DNA of 64,000 nt from Lysinibacillus sp. ZYM-1. GTDB taxonomy: Bacteria > Bacillota > Bacilli > Bacillales_A > Planococcaceae. Each line of letters starts with the position of its first letter. Within the stretch, counting starts at the first letter, position 1. The DNA is taken from assembly GCF_001308875.1 (NCBI RefSeq), contig NZ_KQ465109.1:62001-126000 (forward strand), given 5' to 3'. The notes beneath the pieces were generated by a model. The model made no database searches, was not told the origin of the DNA, and was given only the letters and a program-made list of their open reading frames with translations. Positions 9,846-48,958 of this stretch are shown one piece after another. The position numbers and the translations under genes were made by a program.

Positions 9846-10199
9846 ATGAAACTACGTAAAATTATCTCTCTAGAATATGTCATCGCCTTTATCATTACAG
9901 TCTTTTTCTATAGGCACTTGGATTTTTCCTGGCTACCGTTTGTTTTACTTTTACTGTTACCTGATATCACGATGGTCGGCTATCTGATTAATTCGAAAAC
10001 AGGGGCACTTTTCTATAATATTGGACATAGCTTTGTGTTACCCGCCATACTTCTTGTGATTGGCTTTATGCTATCCACACCACCACTTCTAATGGTTGCC
10101 TTAATTTGGCTAGCGCATATTTTCTTAGATCGGGCACTCGGTTATGGTTTAAAATATGAAGAAGCCTTTTCAAAAACGCATTTACAGCAAATTGCGTAG
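9846..10199 (+). CDS. DUF4260 family membrane protein
   Basis: 117-aa integral membrane protein with four hydrophobic segments (about residues 8-25, 30-48, 58-76 and 80-100). The C-terminal LDRALGYGLKY...FSKTHLQ motif and the YNIGHSFVLP stretch are, from memory, hallmarks of DUF4260. The ATG lies 1 bp after the MerR stop, with GGAAGG about 11 nt upstream, so the two are cotranscribed and coupled. Function of the family is unknown; the MerR pairing suggests it is induced by a chemical or redox stress. Confidence 0.78.
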   Translation: MKLRKIISLEYVIAFIITVFFYRHLDFSWLPFVLLLLLPDITMVGYLINSKTGALFYNIGHSFVLPAILLVIGFMLSTPPLLMVALIWLAHIFLDRALGYGLKYEEAFSKTHLQQIA

Positions 10200-10310: not shown

Positions 10311-11207
10311 CTAATTGTCGGACACTTGGATGTCCTGCCAACCGCTTACATCGCATTGGCCATACTCATTATCACCCACAGCAACCACCGTTCCGTCAGA
10401 TTGAAGACCGAGCGTATGCGCACAACCTGCTGCTATCGCTACAATATCACGCCAGCCACTGACATTACATTGACCATGCTTATTCAAGCCTACAGCCGTC
10501 ACCGTTCCATCCGATTGAAGTCCAATGGTATGTTGACTACCCGCCGCTATCGCCACAATGCCTTGCCAGCCAGTTACATCGCATTGGTCATGTTTATTCG
10601 AACCCACAGCTGTCACGGTTTCGTCAGATTGAAGACCGATTGTATGAAGAAAACCTGCAGCGACCGCCACCATATTGCACCAGTCATTGACATTGCATTG
10701 ACGATACCGATTATTCCCCACAGCCATCACCGTTCCGTCCATTTGAAGACCAATTGAATGCCAGTCACCTACCGCAACCGCCACCATATCACGCCAGTCG
10801 TTTACATTACACTCACCCTCATTGTTTTTGCCCACTGCGACTACCTTGCCATCCGATTGAAGTCCAATGGTATGACACCAACCCGCTGCAACAGCTACAA
10901 TATTGCACCAGTCATCTACATTACATTGACAATGCTTATTCCAACCGACAGCTGCTACAGTACCATTAGATTGAAGACCGAGCGTATGCGTATTACCCGT
11001 GTTCATCGCCATATGAACATTACCTGCAGCAACCGCCACGATATCGCGCCAGCCGCTTACATTACATTGGCCATATTTATTATCACCTGTAGCCACCACA
11101 GTTCCATCATCTTTGAGCCCAACGCTATGACGACGACCTGCCGCTATGGTATCTCTAGGCAACCCTTTTATCTCTAATAAACTTTTATTTGGTGAATTCC
11201 AATCCAT
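10311..11207 (-). CDS. RCC1-repeat (beta-propeller) protein
   Basis: 298-aa protein made almost wholly of RCC1-like repeats. After a short N-terminus, a unit with consensus TVVAVGxNxxGQCxVxxW, then xxIVAIAAGxxHTxGLQSDG recurs every 38 residues: six full units, a partial first (AAGRRHSVGL) and a partial last one. The first full unit is longer by a 9-residue insert. Such repeats form a propeller used as a protein-interaction surface. No signal peptide, so cytoplasmic. Start set at ATG 11207 behind GGGGG, not the TTG four codons earlier. The partner and role are unknown. The DNA itself is a 114-bp tandem repeat, which makes copy-number change likely. Confidence 0.85.
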   Translation of the reverse strand: MDWNSPNKSLLEIKGLPRDTIAAGRRHSVGLKDDGTVVATGDNKYGQCNVSGWRDIVAVAAGNVHMAMNTGNTHTLGLQSNGTVAAVGWNKHCQCNVDDWCNIVAVAAGWCHTIGLQSDGKVVAVGKNNEGECNVNDWRDMVAVAVGDWHSIGLQMDGTVMAVGNNRYRQCNVNDWCNMVAVAAGFLHTIGLQSDETVTAVGSNKHDQCDVTGWQGIVAIAAGSQHTIGLQSDGTVTAVGLNKHGQCNVSGWRDIVAIAAGCAHTLGLQSDGTVVAVGDNEYGQCDVSGWQDIQVSDN

Positions 11208-12678: not shown

Positions 12679-14126
12679 AGTTCGTTTACTCCTTTATAAG
12701 GTGGTAGCCAGCAGATAACCGCTGTTCCAATGTCCTCTTTAGAAAGCAGCTGTACCGTGCCACCGTGTTTTTCAATAATTTGTTTCGTAATATTCAAACC
12801 TAGTCCTGTTCCGCGGTCTCCAGCCTTTGATCTTGCATGATCTGCTTGATACATGGGCTCGAATAATTTTTCAATATCCTTTTCTGGTATGCCCTGTCCG
12901 CAATTTTGCACAATCATGTACATACCTTCTTGCTTGTTTAAAGTTGGTTTAAGGAAATCAAAACTCCATTTCGGATCACTCCCGGCTTTGACTGCCGCTA
13001 AGCCAATAGTTGTACCTATCTCACCAAAACGCCATGCGTTGCTCAATAAATTATCAATCACGCGTTGTAGTTGTTTAGGATGCACAGCATATAGCCCATC
13101 CACATCACAGAATATTTCTAATGTAAACCCTCGTTCCTCACATAACGGTTCATAGTCAGATAAGGCCATGTCAAAAAATTCTTCACCATCAACAGCTACC
13201 AGCTCTAATTCATAGTTCGTTGATTGAAGTAATGTAAACATCAATAAATCTTCTAACATATGTTTCATCCGATCAGCTTTCGTTACGATGACCTGCTGAT
13301 ATTCTTCCTGTTGCTTTTCTGATAAGACATTGTTTCGTAAAGATTCTGCATAGGCATGAATAGCTGTAAGAGGCGTTTTTAAATCATGGGAGATACTTGC
13401 AATCATCATCTCTTTTTGCTGTTGTTCCACTTTTAAAGAAGTCCGAGTCTTTTCAATTTCATCTTGCATCGCCACAAATGTTTGGGCGAGTAAGCCAATC
13501 TCATCTTTTCTTGCGCTTAGATTTGATTCTATATGCTCACCTTTTGCAAAATTCCGCATTTGATGCATCAGTTCTCGTAATGGTCGATTTAGTTTCCGAT
13601 TAAGCAACACTATGACGGCTAAATAAATGACTAGAAACAGTAGAATGGAGCCTGTAATGACAAGCCATGAACGCTTCTCTACACCTTTTACCCAATCTGT
13701 TCTTATTAATTGAATTTCATAGATGCCCAACAAATTCCCTTTTTGATAAACAGGCTCCTTGTAGGTAAAGGCGTTGTATGTTTGTTGTAAGTCATATAGA
13801 CCTTTCAGCATGCGCTCTTTCCCCACATATCCCGATAGTAAAGGGTTGGAGGAATATAAGACGAAGCCTGATTTCGTATAAAGTGTAATCGCCAGCTGCT
13901 CATTTGTCAGTTCTTCTATCTCTTCTAGATTCGCATTTTTTTGATAAAGTGCTGCATCGTCTACAATTTCTTTTACCTGATTCAGCTCTGTCCACTTGTC
14001 AAAGTATTCTGCAACATTTTTATCTTGATAATAAGCATTAATCCACACATAAAGGCTATAGGCTCCAGCTATGGGCAACACCATGACAATAAAAAAAGTA
14101 ATCAGTAACCAAGATTTAATTTTCAT
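12675..14126 (-). CDS. Sensor histidine kinase (HAMP, HisKA, HATPase)
   Basis: 483-aa membrane kinase. Membrane segments at about 7-28 and 152-175 enclose a ~125-residue extracellular sensor domain. A HAMP domain follows (about 176-228), then the H-box SISHDLKTPLTA with phospho-acceptor His247, N-box NLLSNAWRFGE, and G boxes GQGIPEKDIEKLFEP and GDRGTGLGLNI. It phosphorylates the OmpR regulator encoded just upstream; the genes overlap by 4 bp (ATGA). The downstream overlap with a LolA-like lipoprotein gene is the notable feature of the locus. Signal unknown. Confidence 0.95.
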   Translation of the reverse strand: MKIKSWLLITFFIVMVLPIAGAYSLYVWINAYYQDKNVAEYFDKWTELNQVKEIVDDAALYQKNANLEEIEELTNEQLAITLYTKSGFVLYSSNPLLSGYVGKERMLKGLYDLQQTYNAFTYKEPVYQKGNLLGIYEIQLIRTDWVKGVEKRSWLVITGSILLFLVIYLAVIVLLNRKLNRPLRELMHQMRNFAKGEHIESNLSARKDEIGLLAQTFVAMQDEIEKTRTSLKVEQQQKEMMIASISHDLKTPLTAIHAYAESLRNNVLSEKQQEEYQQVIVTKADRMKHMLEDLLMFTLLQSTNYELELVAVDGEEFFDMALSDYEPLCEERGFTLEIFCDVDGLYAVHPKQLQRVIDNLLSNAWRFGEIGTTIGLAAVKAGSDPKWSFDFLKPTLNKQEGMYMIVQNCGQGIPEKDIEKLFEPMYQADHARSKAGDRGTGLGLNITKQIIEKHGGTVQLLSKEDIGTAVICWLPPYKGVNEL

Positions 14127-14821
14127 AATGGTTCACCAATAAAGCGGTAACCCTTACCCCACACAGTTTGAATAAAATATGGACTTTTCACTGAATCCTT
14201 GAGCTTCTCTCGTAGTGCCTTAATATGTACTGTGACAGTATGTGTATCCTCTAAAGTCGCTTGCTGCCAAATATGCTGATATAGTTCCTCTTTCGTAAAG
14301 GTTTGGCTCGGATTTTTTGCTAGTAGCTTGACCAGAGCAAATTCTTTTTGAGTTAACGCTACTTCTTGTTGATTAACGCTTACTATTTCTCGTTGCCATT
14401 CAATTGTTAATCCGTTGGCATAGGCAGTTTGCTCTTCTACAACGTCTTGCTTGTTATAGCGTCTCCAGCGTCTAAGATGGGAGTCCACACGTGCCTTTAA
14501 CTCCTCTAAACTAAACGGCTTTGCAATATAATCGTCCGCCCCCTGCAAGCCCTTCACCTTATCCGCTTCTTCCTTACGGGCACTCATCATGAGGATGGGT
14601 ACTTCACTTTCCCAACGTATATTTTGACAAACAGTAAGACCATCCATTTCTGGTAGCATCCAATCGACTAACACTAAATCGAATGGTTGCGCTTGAAAAT
14701 CAGCTAGTCCTTCAAGGCCCGTTGTTGCCCATGTCACAAGATAGCCCTCATGCTCCAGTGTATCCTTGACAATGCGCCCAATCGCTGCATCATCCTCAAT
14801 CAGTAGTATCTTTTCCTTCAT
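14123..14821 (-). CDS. OmpR/PhoB family response regulator
   Basis: 232-aa DNA-binding regulator. The receiver domain (1-115) has acidic pocket ED/D at 9-11, phospho-acceptor Asp53 (LVDWMLPEMDG) and the KPF motif near 105. The C-terminal winged helix (about 135-230) has LTQKEFALVKLLAKNPSQTF and VTVHIKALREKL. First gene of the operon with the kinase, lipoprotein and small membrane protein. ATG with SD AGGAGGAG. The 21-bp repeat array begins about 110 bp upstream of this start. Confidence 0.95.
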   Translation of the reverse strand: MKEKILLIEDDAAIGRIVKDTLEHEGYLVTWATTGLEGLADFQAQPFDLVLVDWMLPEMDGLTVCQNIRWESEVPILMMSARKEEADKVKGLQGADDYIAKPFSLEELKARVDSHLRRWRRYNKQDVVEEQTAYANGLTIEWQREIVSVNQQEVALTQKEFALVKLLAKNPSQTFTKEELYQHIWQQATLEDTHTVTVHIKALREKLKDSVKSPYFIQTVWGKGYRFIGEPL

Positions 14822-14933: not shown

Positions 14934-15567
14934 TGTCCATCACTTTCCTCGTTTTATCCGTCACTTTTGCCACGCTATCCGTCACTTCGCTCAATCTTTC
15001 CGTTTCCTCGATCCTATCCTTCACTCTGCTTGGACTATCCGTCACTTTTGCCACGTTATCCGTCACTTTCCTCGCTTTATCCGTCACTTTTGCCACGTTA
15101 TCCGTCACTTTCCTCGCTTTATCCGTCACTTCGCTCAATCTTTCCGTTTCCTCGATCCTATCCTTCACTCTGCTCGGACTATCCGTCACTTTTGCCACGT
15201 TATCCGTCACTTTCCTCGCTTTATCCGTCACTTCGCTCAATCTATCCGTTTCCTCGATCCTATCCTTCACTCTGCTTGGGCTATCCGTCACTTTTGCCGC
15301 GCTATCCGTCACTTTCCTCGGTTTATCCGTCACTTCGCTCAATCTATCCGTTTCCTCGGTTCTATTCTTCACTCCGCTTGGGCTATCCGTCACTTTTGCT
15401 GCGCTATCCGTCACTTTTGCCACGCTATCCGTCACTTTCCTCGCTTTATCCGTCTCTTCGCCAGTCCTATCCGTCACTTTTGCCGCGCTATCCGTCACTT
15501 CGCTCAATCTTTCCGTTTCCTCGATCCTATCCTTCACTCTGCTCGGATTATTCGCCACTTTAGCCCA
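14934..15567. repeat. Tandem 21-bp repeat array 1 (31 units, 102-bp higher-order period)
   Basis: Read on the plus strand, 31 head-to-tail units start with the core TATCCGTCACTT or a close variant, followed by about nine variable bases. Five units (numbers 4, 11, 16, 21 and 29) are 18 bp, the rest 21 bp. Variants recur in the order C-D-E-A-B (endings CGCTCAATC; the 18-bp type TTTCCTCGATCC; CTCTGCTTGG; TTGCCACG; TCCTCGCTT), giving a 102-bp super-repeat. The plus strand is pyrimidine-rich. The array begins 3-8 bp from the T-run of the pit operon terminator and ends about 110 bp before the response regulator gene. Three frames are open because 18 and 21 are multiples of 3, but no frame has a credible start. 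Confidence 0.95.
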
Positions 15568-15570
15568 AAC

Positions 15571-15599
15571 AAAAAAAGAATGCACAGTTTTGTGCATTC
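15571..15599 (-). terminator. Rho-independent terminator of the pit operon
   Basis: Perfect 9-bp stem GAATGCACA (15578-15586) / TGTGCATTC (15591-15599), 4-nt loop, then seven T on the minus strand. The only ATG that could open the long minus-strand frame of the adjoining repeat array lies inside this stem. Confidence 0.92.
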
Positions 15600-15608
15600 C
15601 TCATCGAA

Positions 15609-16625
15609 CTAGAAAAATAAACTTAAAATATAGTAAATCAATGCTGCCATTACTGCAGAGATTGGCATAGTGATGACCCAAGTTGTTATGATTTTACGGG
15701 CCATTCCCCATTTAACGCCTTTGACACGGTGTGCTGTTCCTACACCCATGATAGATGAAGAAATAACATGTGTCGTGGATACAGGTAAGTGAATTAATGT
15801 CGCTCCAAAGATGATGGAAGCCGAAGCTAAATCAGCTGCTACCCCATTCACTGGGCGAATTTTCATAATCTTACCACCCACTGTTTTGATGATTTTATAA
15901 CCACCTACAGAGGTACCAAGACCCATCGCAGTTGCTGCTGCAAAACGTACCCAGAAAGGAATATCGTCACCTGTGTGTAAACCACCTGCGATTAACGCAA
16001 GGGTAATAATCCCCATCGCTTTTTGGGCATCGTTTGTTCCGTGAGTAAATGATTGTAAGGCAGCTGTCCCGATTTGCATGGTACGGAAACCTTTATTTGT
16101 ACGATATAAATTCATATCTTTAAAGATGACCTTCAATATTGTCATCATTAGGAAACCAGCTGCAAACGCTAGCAGTGGTGAGAAAATCAGTGCTTGTAAA
16201 ATTTTAATAAACCCAGCATAGTTCAATACATCGAATCCCGCTGCTGCAATAGCTGCACCTGCCACAGAACCGATTAATGTATGGGAAGAACTTGATGGAA
16301 TCCCAAAATACCATGTAAGTAAATTCCATGTAATGGCGGAAAATAAGGCTGCTAAAATAACGACCGAACCTGTGATATCGCCATCAAAAGCATTTAAGCT
16401 AAACGGGTCCACAATATCTTTTGTTAAGGCTTTTGCTACCCCAACAAATGTAATGGCGCCGACGAAGTTCATAACCGCAGCCATGTAAACCGCTGTACGT
16501 GGTTTTAATGCACGGGTTGATACAGAAGTTGCAATAGCATTCGCCGTATCATGGAAGCCGTTTATAAAGTCGAACACTAGTGCGAATATAACGACTAATA
16601 TGGTGATTAGTAATATCGTATCCAT
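15609..16625 (-). CDS. pit: PiT family inorganic phosphate transporter
   Basis: Low-affinity phosphate (metal-phosphate) symporter of the cytoplasmic membrane. The 338-aa protein has the two PiT signature repeats: GFHDTANAIATSVSTRAL near the N-terminus and THGTNDAQKAMGIITLAL in the middle, and a C-terminal LPVSTTHVISSSIMGVG stretch. About ten membrane segments. Start chosen at ATG 16625, 8 nt after ATGGAG, rather than a GTG three codons earlier. The upstream DUF47 gene is the usual partner of pit and lies within 16 bp. Assignment to PiT is firm; the ion preference is not readable. Confidence 0.94.
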   Translation of the reverse strand: MDTILLITILVVIFALVFDFINGFHDTANAIATSVSTRALKPRTAVYMAAVMNFVGAITFVGVAKALTKDIVDPFSLNAFDGDITGSVVILAALFSAITWNLLTWYFGIPSSSSHTLIGSVAGAAIAAAGFDVLNYAGFIKILQALIFSPLLAFAAGFLMMTILKVIFKDMNLYRTNKGFRTMQIGTAALQSFTHGTNDAQKAMGIITLALIAGGLHTGDDIPFWVRFAAATAMGLGTSVGGYKIIKTVGGKIMKIRPVNGVAADLASASIIFGATLIHLPVSTTHVISSSIMGVGTAHRVKGVKWGMARKIITTWVITMPISAVMAALIYYILSLFF

Positions 16626-16640
16626 TTCGTACACTCCATC

Positions 16641-47121: not shown

Positions 47122-47541
47122 CTATTGATTGATATTCATATAAATTCTCGCAAAAACCTGTGTCGCTATTTCAATGTCTTGCTGAGCTACACCTGCCAGT
47201 GCATGCTCAAAAAACGGCTTCAAATGCGACTTAATTTCCTGCACAAGCTCTTCCCCATACGCCGATAAATGGACAAGCTTTTCCCGCTTATCCTTGCCCG
47301 CCATCGTTTCCACATACCCTAGCTCCAAGAGTTTATGTACAAGCTTCGTCACACTCGGCTTCTCAATAGACATGAAATTAGCGATATCTACAAAAGAATG
47401 CGGACCTTTATCCTTTAAAAAACGAAGAACTGCCCACTGTGAGCTATATAACTGATACGGTTCAAGTTGCACATTCAGCTTATTAATAAATGGCCTATAC
47501 ATTAAACGATACTGATTAAAAAATTCTTGCTCAATTGTCAC
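47122..47541 (-). CDS. MarR family transcriptional regulator
   Basis: 139-aa winged-helix repressor. LYSSQWAVLRFLKDKGPHSFVDIANFMSIEKPSVTKLVHKLLELGYVET contains the MarR recognition helix, followed by the DKREKLVHLSAYG wing. GTG start with AAAGGAAG. Encoded in front of an MFS transporter, the usual marR-efflux arrangement. A 19-bp palindrome overlaps the promoter -10 and is the likely operator. Ligand unknown. Confidence 0.93.
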   Translation of the reverse strand: MTIEQEFFNQYRLMYRPFINKLNVQLEPYQLYSSQWAVLRFLKDKGPHSFVDIANFMSIEKPSVTKLVHKLLELGYVETMAGKDKREKLVHLSAYGEELVQEIKSHLKPFFEHALAGVAQQDIEIATQVFARIYMNINQ

Positions 47542-47649: not shown

Positions 47650-47973
47650 CTATCCGTCACTTTATGCGTTATTTGCACTATATTCGCTCCACTATCTATA
47701 ACATCCATGTGTATCCACCACTTTCTGTTTTCTATCCATCACTTCTCGCGTTCTATCCGTCACTTTTCCTGCTCTATCCGTCACTCCAGCTTTTCTAACC
47801 GTCACTCCATGCATATCCACCACTTTCGGTTTTCTATCCATCACTTCTCGCGTTTTATCCGTCACTTTTCCTGCTTTATCCGTCACTTCGGCTTTTTTAT
47901 CCGTCACACCGCACTGTATCCACCACATTCGGTTTTCTATCCGTCACTCCATGCGTATCCACCACGCCACCCA
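47650..47973. repeat. Tandem 21-bp repeat array 2 (about 15 units, 102-103-bp higher-order period)
   Basis: Same family as the array at 14934-15567. Units start TATCCGTCACTT or variants (TATCCACCACTT, TATCCATCACTT) and are mainly 21 bp. The unit TATCCACCAC(T/A)TTC begins at 47712, 47814 and 47917, so the super-period is 102-103 bp (four 21-bp units plus one of 18-19). The first ~60 bp (47650-47711) are degenerate. One 19-bp unit (47898-47916) breaks the reading frame. The array ends 1-2 bp from the T-run of the NERD gene terminator and about 45 bp before the marR promoter -35. Confidence 0.93.
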
Positions 47974-47974
47974 C

Positions 47975-48011
47975 AAAAAAGCTACAATTCAGACCGTCTG
48001 AATTGTAGCTT
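47975..48011 (-). terminator. Rho-independent terminator of the NERD gene
   Basis: Near-perfect palindrome with 16-nt arms (47979-47994 and 47996-48011), then six T on the minus strand. Array 2 abuts the T-run. Confidence 0.92.
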
Positions 48012-48016
48012 CCCTT

Positions 48017-48958
48017 TTATTCCATCATCCAATACTCCCTATGCTTTTTTGAACCTTCTGCTTTCAATGGGAGCTGCTGGAGCAGCTTGTAGGCGACGTT
48101 CGGCGAATCGATGGCAAAGAATTCGCGAAAGCTTTTATTTGTCAGCTTTGGGCCTACTAGTAATCGATAGTCTTCGAGGTCTCTTTTCAAAGCATCCCGG
48201 TCCACTAATCCACAGCGTGGGCAATGCCATTTTTTATAGGAATAGCTCATTGGCTGGCCATTTGCGCATTTTGGGCATATCACACCTTTGACCATGTCCT
48301 CGAATGGCACTTTCACTGCCCTTTTCACTTTTTTATGCATGGACATGAGGACCCTGGCAAATCGAAAGAGTTTTTCTGTCTCTACAGGTTGATGTAAGTC
48401 TAACCATTTTTGTAGGTGCACTCGTAATCCTGTTACATGAAATATTGGCTGTCCTTGAAAACCTTCTGATAAAATCCCATTTTTTGTTGCTAGCACGACT
48501 GCATGCAGAACTGGTAAATGAAAGTGTTCTCGTTGTAACAGCCTTTTCATCCATACCACATGTCGTTCAAGTTGAAGAAATGGATCAGTCATTCCCTCCA
48601 GGTTGCCTTCACCAGTTGTACGTGTAAATTGTGCAAATAAAGCATCGTAAGAGAGAATCCCTGTTATATTTTTTATCTCTAAAATGAGTAAAAATTGACG
48701 ACACAGAAAAATAGTATCCATTTGATGGGTGGAGCCGAAGTCATTCATTGTTTGAAAATCATGGAGAAAATAATAGGGGGAAGGTAAGTCTAGCTCAAGC
48801 CATTCTGCATCTACACGCTGCTCACCGGCGAAGCCAGCTTTTAAGCGTCTTACATGCTCACAATAATTCGAGTACTCACTATGAGTTACTGGGAGTCTTC
48901 TGACAATTACTTCTAGTGTCTTCTGTGTTTCCGATGTTCGACGTGCTAATAAAATCAT
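48017..48958 (-). CDS. NERD-domain protein with C-terminal zinc ribbon
   Basis: 313 aa. NERD (nuclease-related) domain at about 35-150 with the expected GEQRVDAEW, QMDTIFL and LILEIKNITG core of an endonuclease-like fold. A four-Cys zinc ribbon follows (VICPKCANG, then HCPRCG; about residues 220-245). Cytoplasmic. NERD proteins are thought to act on DNA; the activity is unproven for most. ATG with SD AGGAGG; single-gene unit. The end of the gene borders repeat array 2, so a link to the repeat is possible but only by position. Confidence 0.87.
   Translation of the reverse strand: MILLARRTSETQKTLEVIVRRLPVTHSEYSNYCEHVRRLKAGFAGEQRVDAEWLELDLPSPYYFLHDFQTMNDFGSTHQMDTIFLCRQFLLILEIKNITGILSYDALFAQFTRTTGEGNLEGMTDPFLQLERHVVWMKRLLQREHFHLPVLHAVVLATKNGILSEGFQGQPIFHVTGLRVHLQKWLDLHQPVETEKLFRFARVLMSMHKKVKRAVKVPFEDMVKGVICPKCANGQPMSYSYKKWHCPRCGLVDRDALKRDLEDYRLLVGPKLTNKSFREFFAIDSPNVAYKLLQQLPLKAEGSKKHREYWMME

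Follow-up and report, generated by a model that had tools for sequence, protein, structure and literature searches.

A dispersed family of 21-bp tandem arrays at gene ends in Lysinibacillus, mostly oriented with replication

What is a tandem array of 31 short units doing directly behind the gene for a phosphate transporter? The question is raised by a locus in Lysinibacillus sp. ZYM-1, located in a stretch of 64,000 nucleotides (contig NZ_KQ465109.1, positions 62,001 to 126,000), which we call the window and whose own numbering is used throughout. The array (array 1), its neighbours and a second array of the same family (array 2) occupy the following positions.

14123..14821, minus strand: response regulator gene (Response_reg + Trans_reg_C), on the opposite flank of array 1
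14934..15567, plus strand: array 1, 31 units; consensus TATCCGTCACTTTNNNNNTTC on the plus strand, purine strand AAAGTGACGGATAGAA on the minus strand
15057..15500, plus strand: 102-bp higher-order repeat within array 1, 4.3 copies (TRF)
15575..15602, minus strand: intrinsic terminator of pit; its T-run extends into array 1, and the hairpin is kept in the pit orthologues of the genus
15609..16634, minus strand: pit phosphate transporter gene (PHO4, PF01384), with array 1 directly behind its 3' end
47122..47541, minus strand: MarR-type regulator gene, on the opposite flank of array 2
47651..47973, plus strand: array 2, same family, 14 recognisable units, 102-bp period
47980..48011, minus strand: hairpin with T-run after the NERD-domain gene, directed into array 2 (coordinates taken from the sequence)
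48017..48958, minus strand: NERD-domain protein gene (PF08378), with array 2 at its 3' end

The units of array 1 follow one another head to tail; 25 measure 21 bp and five 18 bp, while the last, cut at position 15567, has 19 bp. A preliminary description, made from the letters alone, had counted 31 units recurring in the variant order C-D-E-A-B, both of which we found again in the window, and had judged its order to exceed what simple slippage of a single 21-mer would leave, a judgement that is supported here. TRF detects periods of 21, 42, 102, 123 and 144 bp in array 1, with 87% matches for the 102-bp period. The 102-bp super-unit thought to build the array does exist locally, but it is not the defining building block: what loci and species have in common is the 21-bp unit, and other local higher-order spacings amount to 82 and 103 bp (both in genomes G033 and G101), 102 bp (G120) and 124 bp (G103). 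The core sequence TATCCGTCACTT occurs exactly 18 times in array 1; with up to two mismatches, it has 41 matches in the window against 4.24 expected, a number reached in none of 100 shuffles, and 12 of the 41 lie in array 2 and four in neither array. Elsewhere in the window, the gene for an RCC1-repeat protein (PF13540; 10311-11219) gives rise to a 114-bp TRF tandem period at 10354-10952.

The unit comprises about 16 conserved, non-palindromic bases and a free spacer of 5 bp, at a step of 21 bp or two helical turns. Weighted per locus, the units of the source genome read TATCCGTCACTTT-NNNNN-TTC, with an information content per position of 0.9-2.0 bits at positions 1-13, 0.0-0.6 bits at positions 14-18 and 0.8-1.1 bits at positions 19-21. 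Units were detected by at most two mismatches to any of five core variants, which favours conserved cores and leaves positions 13-21 unused; because positions 13 and 19-21, outside the detection, carry information as well, the constant part is to be put at some 16 bases with five free ones, in place of the 12-base core with nine variable bases that had been proposed. The array had also been set apart from CRISPR, and with reason: identical repeats separated by unique spacers of some 25-40 bp, the hallmark of such loci, are not found in it, its free spacer being just 5 bp.

Within arrays of nine units or fewer, neighbouring units are identical in 69-100% of pairs at positions 1-5, 8 and 9, and in 6-45% of pairs at spacer positions 14-18, a chance level of identity like that between arrays; at positions 19-21, agreement between adjacent units in the source genome is near chance (24%, 72% and 34%). 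The step is exactly 21 bp in 133 of 140 cases in these short arrays. In arrays of more than nine units, 794 of 1011 steps measure 21 bp and 171 measure 19 bp, so helical phase is not strict; a conserved core at a constant helical step is found in the short arrays and more weakly in the long ones. None of the 50 distinct 21-mers of the source genome is common to more than one locus, so the shared core is not due to recent copying; the corresponding counts are 0/28 in G093, 1/36 in G107 and 0/16 in G117. A core and a step that are kept while the spacers are randomised point to selection on each unit and on the spacing.

Array 1 is one member of a dispersed family of non-coding tandem arrays. The preliminary description had named many copies genome-wide as possible support and, indeed, the genome contains 47 exact core matches against three for the reversed pattern. 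Paired cores 21 bp apart, with up to three mismatches, give 86 matches in the source genome and none for the reversed control; manual counting of clusters among these 86 yields 22 places. Within the genus, TCCGTCAC-N13-TCCGTCAC with one mismatch matches 27 of 32 genomes (0 to 302 matches each), its reversed control giving one match in five of the 32. In a sample of the family, 25 of 101 genomes match, those outside the genus with 0-4 matches each, some of them coding-like. At the level of the class, 11 of 398 genomes match the strict pair when three mismatches are allowed; the looser triple TATC-N4-ACTT matches 49, of which 23 have at least three matches (counted by eye), against 3/398 genomes with at least three and 19/398 with at least one match for its reversed control (also by eye), and single matches among the 49 may therefore be chance. 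In named genomes, exact pairs occur in Lysinibacillus species and in Sporosarcina limicola (36 stretches); arrays are missing from one entire clade and from the majority of class genomes. An exact pattern search of viral contigs gave no match, blastn against plasmids and phages gave none either, and neither terminal inverted repeats nor target duplications were seen in the Lysinibacillus arrays that were read.

Five other lineages (G413, G437, G302, G244 and G085) keep TATC-N4-ACTT with a main step of 21 bp, the length of 88 of their 100 steps in the 18-22 range; lineage variants differ in the middle bases (e.g., TATCGGTCACTT, TATCAGTCACTT, TATCGACCACTT and TATCCTTCACTT). Six loci of G437 (L090, L101, L111, L192, L194 and L197) carry elements that are four to five units long and have fixed ends, the left one being TTTTTGTCGAATATC and the right one, in the majority, TATCGATTTTTCGACAA. 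These ends are partly inverted, and the inverted TTTTGTCGAA resembles a Spo0A box; CsrA sites (ANGGA) were considered as well. In G085, the copies at L098 and L193, separated by about 1.4 kb, have not only cores but also spacers in common, which indicates recent copying; several elements of that genome terminate in a GTCAYTTCRTGAC-like sequence.

The arrays sit at the 3' ends of genes, mainly of leading-strand genes, often immediately after an intrinsic terminator. We considered 106 arrays (from the source genome, five other genomes and named loci) flanked on each side by a called gene no more than 700 bp away; the adjoining gene ends towards the array in 97 of them, and in 221 of 351 background gaps, these being the other gaps of the same loci, which had been selected for holding arrays. 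Gene calls are ORFs combined with a codon model trained on Lysinibacillus loci and are uncurated. With the arrays read as TATCC, the flanking strands are (-,-) in 55 cases, (+,-) in 42, (-,+) in five and (+,+) in four, against 179, 42, 92 and 38, respectively, in the background. Tandem, convergent and divergent gaps thus number 59, 42 and 5 for arrays versus 217, 42 and 92 for the background (p = 5e-12; this and the other p values for position and polarity come out too small, as orthologous arrays counted in several species are not independent), so that arrays avoid divergent gaps, where promoters lie. A position always at gene ends, which the preliminary description had named as possible support, holds for most arrays, but five of the 106 lie between divergent genes and four behind a lagging-strand gene only. 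Behind lagging-strand tandem genes arrays are scarce, with four against 38 in the background (Fisher p = 0.04 for tandem orientation).

The purine strand (AAAGTGACGGATAGAA) lies on the leading strand. Across ten genomes, array orientation follows replication at 95 of 102 places (for G101 and G120, among the matches listed), with a binomial p of 2e-6 against 75% and of 0.001 against 82%, the (-,-) share of background tandem gaps. For this count, whose places were compiled by hand, the replication origin was set by dnaA at base 1 in G093 and G101 and placed from rho in the other eight genomes, the terminus being the midpoint; one match in G093 (1993262) was dropped as not array-like, but a comparable match in G109 (2159196) was retained and counted as a misfit. 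In convergent gaps, 27 of 29 arrays follow replication (p = 8e-7). Pure gene polarity, which predicts about half there, was rejected; gene polarity and replication may both matter, since lagging-strand tandem genes are also under-represented. Local GC skew, a measure that correlates with gene strand, puts all 15 arrays tested in the source genome on the C-rich strand; at one locus, opposite genes predominate. Polarity is less marked in other lineages, the right-hand gene ending towards the array in 15 of 21 callable loci. The only misfits in convergent gaps are two long arrays, L218 (G101, 443 kb) and L265 (G120, 433 kb), which look orthologous; they share the same neighbourhood, run against replication and have the opposite local GC skew.

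All 32 Lysinibacillus genomes have a pit orthologue. In the 30 pit loci that were read, the terminator hairpin is visible throughout, and 23 of them have at least one unit (at most two mismatches) within 1400 bp downstream, with numbers from 1 to 42. Units follow argS in all seven array-bearing genomes read (1-19 units within 520 bp) and in none of five array-less ones; at a third locus, they occur in four of six array-bearing and none of five array-less genomes. Four genomes with zero matches genome-wide (G063, G111, G116 and G122) form one clade (support 99/97), sister to the array-bearing G107/G113/G123 in a single-gene pit tree in which G121, also without matches, was not placed. Arrays are absent from this clade at pit, argS and the third locus alike, and the simultaneous disappearance of the whole set suggests the involvement of a trans-acting factor.

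The array-less genomes bear a different dispersed repeat, the near-palindrome AATTGTTTGMGTGCCWGGCACTCAAACAATT (core GTGYCWGRCAC), also found behind argS. The core has 20 sites in 215 kb of five array-less genomes and one in 979 kb of eight others; sites in the leading-strand reading are at 10136 and 10170 in L304, 9919 and 10007 in L310, and 4842 in L306. A literature search by the AATTGTTTGMGTGCCWGGCACTCAAACAATT sequence gave no paper on a bacterial repeat among the matches listed. At the pit locus of G106 (L161), an ORF whose first residues resemble those of an IS200/IS605 transposase starts directly behind the terminator, which is the place of the array in other species.

That array 1 is not an ordinary gene, promoter or terminator had been claimed at the outset, and our results agree. 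A minus-strand ORF of 240 aa spans it, the core reading K-V-x-D in one frame, and could be taken for a protein of KVTDxxx heptads, a reading that we consider extremely improbable: frame, stops and codon-position conservation rule it out. Of 1401 steps, 222 are not multiples of three and only 22 are multiples other than 21. A stop-free frame runs through two of 30 arrays of at least 300 bp on the purine strand and through 10 of 30 on the other. Conservation is highest at third codon positions (mean 1.70 versus 1.52 and 1.52 bits, computed by hand, with unit positions 1-12 having also served to find the units), the ATG of the ORF lies within the stem of the pit terminator and every Pfam match is below the cut-off. 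A structured RNA element finds no support either. Rfam gives no match in the array region at E<=1 and none in the window at gathering score, and no dyad was found in the unit in a search for palindromes and hairpins. The RNA of the window array folds less than all of 20 shuffles (z +5.85), a value that is not typical, since the median z over 65 arrays is 0.2 and -0.1, i.e., without a general fold signal. An antisense Rho-dependent terminator is in our opinion improbable. RNA made head-on from the pyrimidine strand would form a C-rich, G-poor rut site at which Rho stops antisense transcription into the gene end, and base composition in Lysinibacillus agrees with this: the TATCC strand of 65 Lysinibacillus arrays contains 33% C and 16% G and has a YC frequency of 0.235 versus 0.104 in control windows, its C spacing is regular in 56 of 65 cases, against 4 of 65 for the opposite strand and 57% of controls, the window array RNA is poorly folded, and rho is present in all 32 genomes. 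However, this poor folding is atypical of the 65 arrays, the C/G ratio of arrays falls to 0.94 in G413 and 1.0 in G085, array-less species have the gene too, and Rho requires neither a 16-base sequence nor a 21-bp step.

The explanation that we prefer, tentatively and by reasoning from sequence, is a phased array of sites for a putative DNA-binding factor, which may form a polar boundary behind terminators. Every unit would be the site of a sequence-specific protein binding double-stranded DNA, and the helical phase of the units would align the bound proteins on one face of the DNA. The bound array could then act as a polar boundary, blocking transcription across the gene end, above all when head-on or antisense; unequal recombination or slippage would lengthen and shorten arrays and create the higher-order repeats, and the loss of the factor, acting in trans, would account for the array-less clade. 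To the anatomy, place, polarity and lineage loss described above, such a boundary would add a protein, a block and a benefit. A protein that reads double-stranded DNA every two turns would be the simplest reader of the units, and the mostly uniform orientation with respect to replication suggests landing sites for such a putative factor. A polar boundary against fork-opposing transcription would agree with the place behind leading-strand terminators and with the fixed polarity. Possible but doubtful is the wider proposal of polar boundary elements of Bacilli, in which phased arrays would mark the ends of leading-strand units, oriented with replication chromosome-wide, and would depend on a lineage-specific trans factor that can be lost.

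Against the boundary stand the loose phase of long arrays, the near-chance agreement of adjacent units at positions 19-21 in the source genome, the one clade and the majority of class genomes that do without arrays, and the weaker polarity in other lineages. Two further observations run contrary to it and favour its main rival: the scarcity of arrays behind lagging-strand tandem genes does not follow from a general block of head-on transcription, and the different repeat at argS in the array-less clade looks as if the site merely tolerates repeats. The rival, which we regard as unlikely, is a selfish or host-neutral satellite without host function, which would be seeded where the lagging-strand template is single-stranded, behind terminator hairpins, and then spread and amplified by a core-recognising enzyme, so that seeding would yield both place and polarity. 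Group IIC introns and IS200/IS605 transposons insert into the lagging-strand template at hairpins, and the 3' ends of leading-strand genes and the sense orientation are what such insertion leads one to expect. Unit numbers ranging from 0 to more than 40 at one orthologous site are in line with a satellite, as are the distinct 21-mers shared between loci above expectation in G101 (13 of 229, 4.3 expected) and G120 (10 of 256, 3.3 expected), the spacers shared by two G085 loci and the fixed ends of G437 and G085 elements. On the other hand, units in short arrays were not recently copied and yet keep core and step, which argues for selection on each copy; viral contigs, phages and plasmids gave no match; in the arrays that were read, no target duplication or clean pair of filled and empty sites was seen; and the pit site of G074 looks like a collapsed array. 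An ordinary neutral minisatellite (VNTR) arising by slippage, with orientation following merely from strand-dependent slippage, would have the higher-order repeats and changing unit numbers typical of tandem repeats, but is improbable, as local slippage leaves unexplained why the same core occurs at 22 places in the genome and in other families without shared spacers.

Comparison with known systems places the arrays beside several of them. The REP/BIME sequences of enterobacteria are interspersed repeats with imperfect palindromes or hairpins. Pneumococcus has interspersed repeats as well, BOX and RUP (PMC3049150). The arrays are likewise dispersed, intergenic, multi-copy, located in many cases at gene ends and lineage-specific in sequence, but their unit is non-palindromic and without hairpin signal, the tandem is a direct one of 21 bp and the orientation is tied to replication. 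With minisatellites they share head-to-tail units, variable copy number and higher-order repeats, but not the single core at many loci and in several families, the unrelated spacers between loci and the replication polarity. They resemble iterons and other phased, protein-binding direct repeats in the length of the repeat, about two helical turns, and in its conserved core, but they lie at many chromosomal gene ends and not at an origin or partition site, and the protein that binds them is putative. Group IIC introns and IS200/IS605 elements likewise favour terminators or hairpins and the lagging-strand template, but the Lysinibacillus arrays have no intron, transposase or defined ends. Among the open-access matches listed, we found no description of such repeats, of their sequences or of this setting; they may have been described elsewhere.

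If the arrays are indeed binding sites, a dedicated element behind gene ends would sense or serve the direction of replication, which would bear on how cells avoid collisions between transcription and replication. If they are selfish, they would represent a satellite DNA of bacteria that has higher-order repeats and a self-maintaining core. Under either reading, annotation pipelines may call proteins in the arrays, as the 240-aa ORF in the window illustrates. For a search for the factor, sister species with and without arrays lend themselves to a clean comparison.
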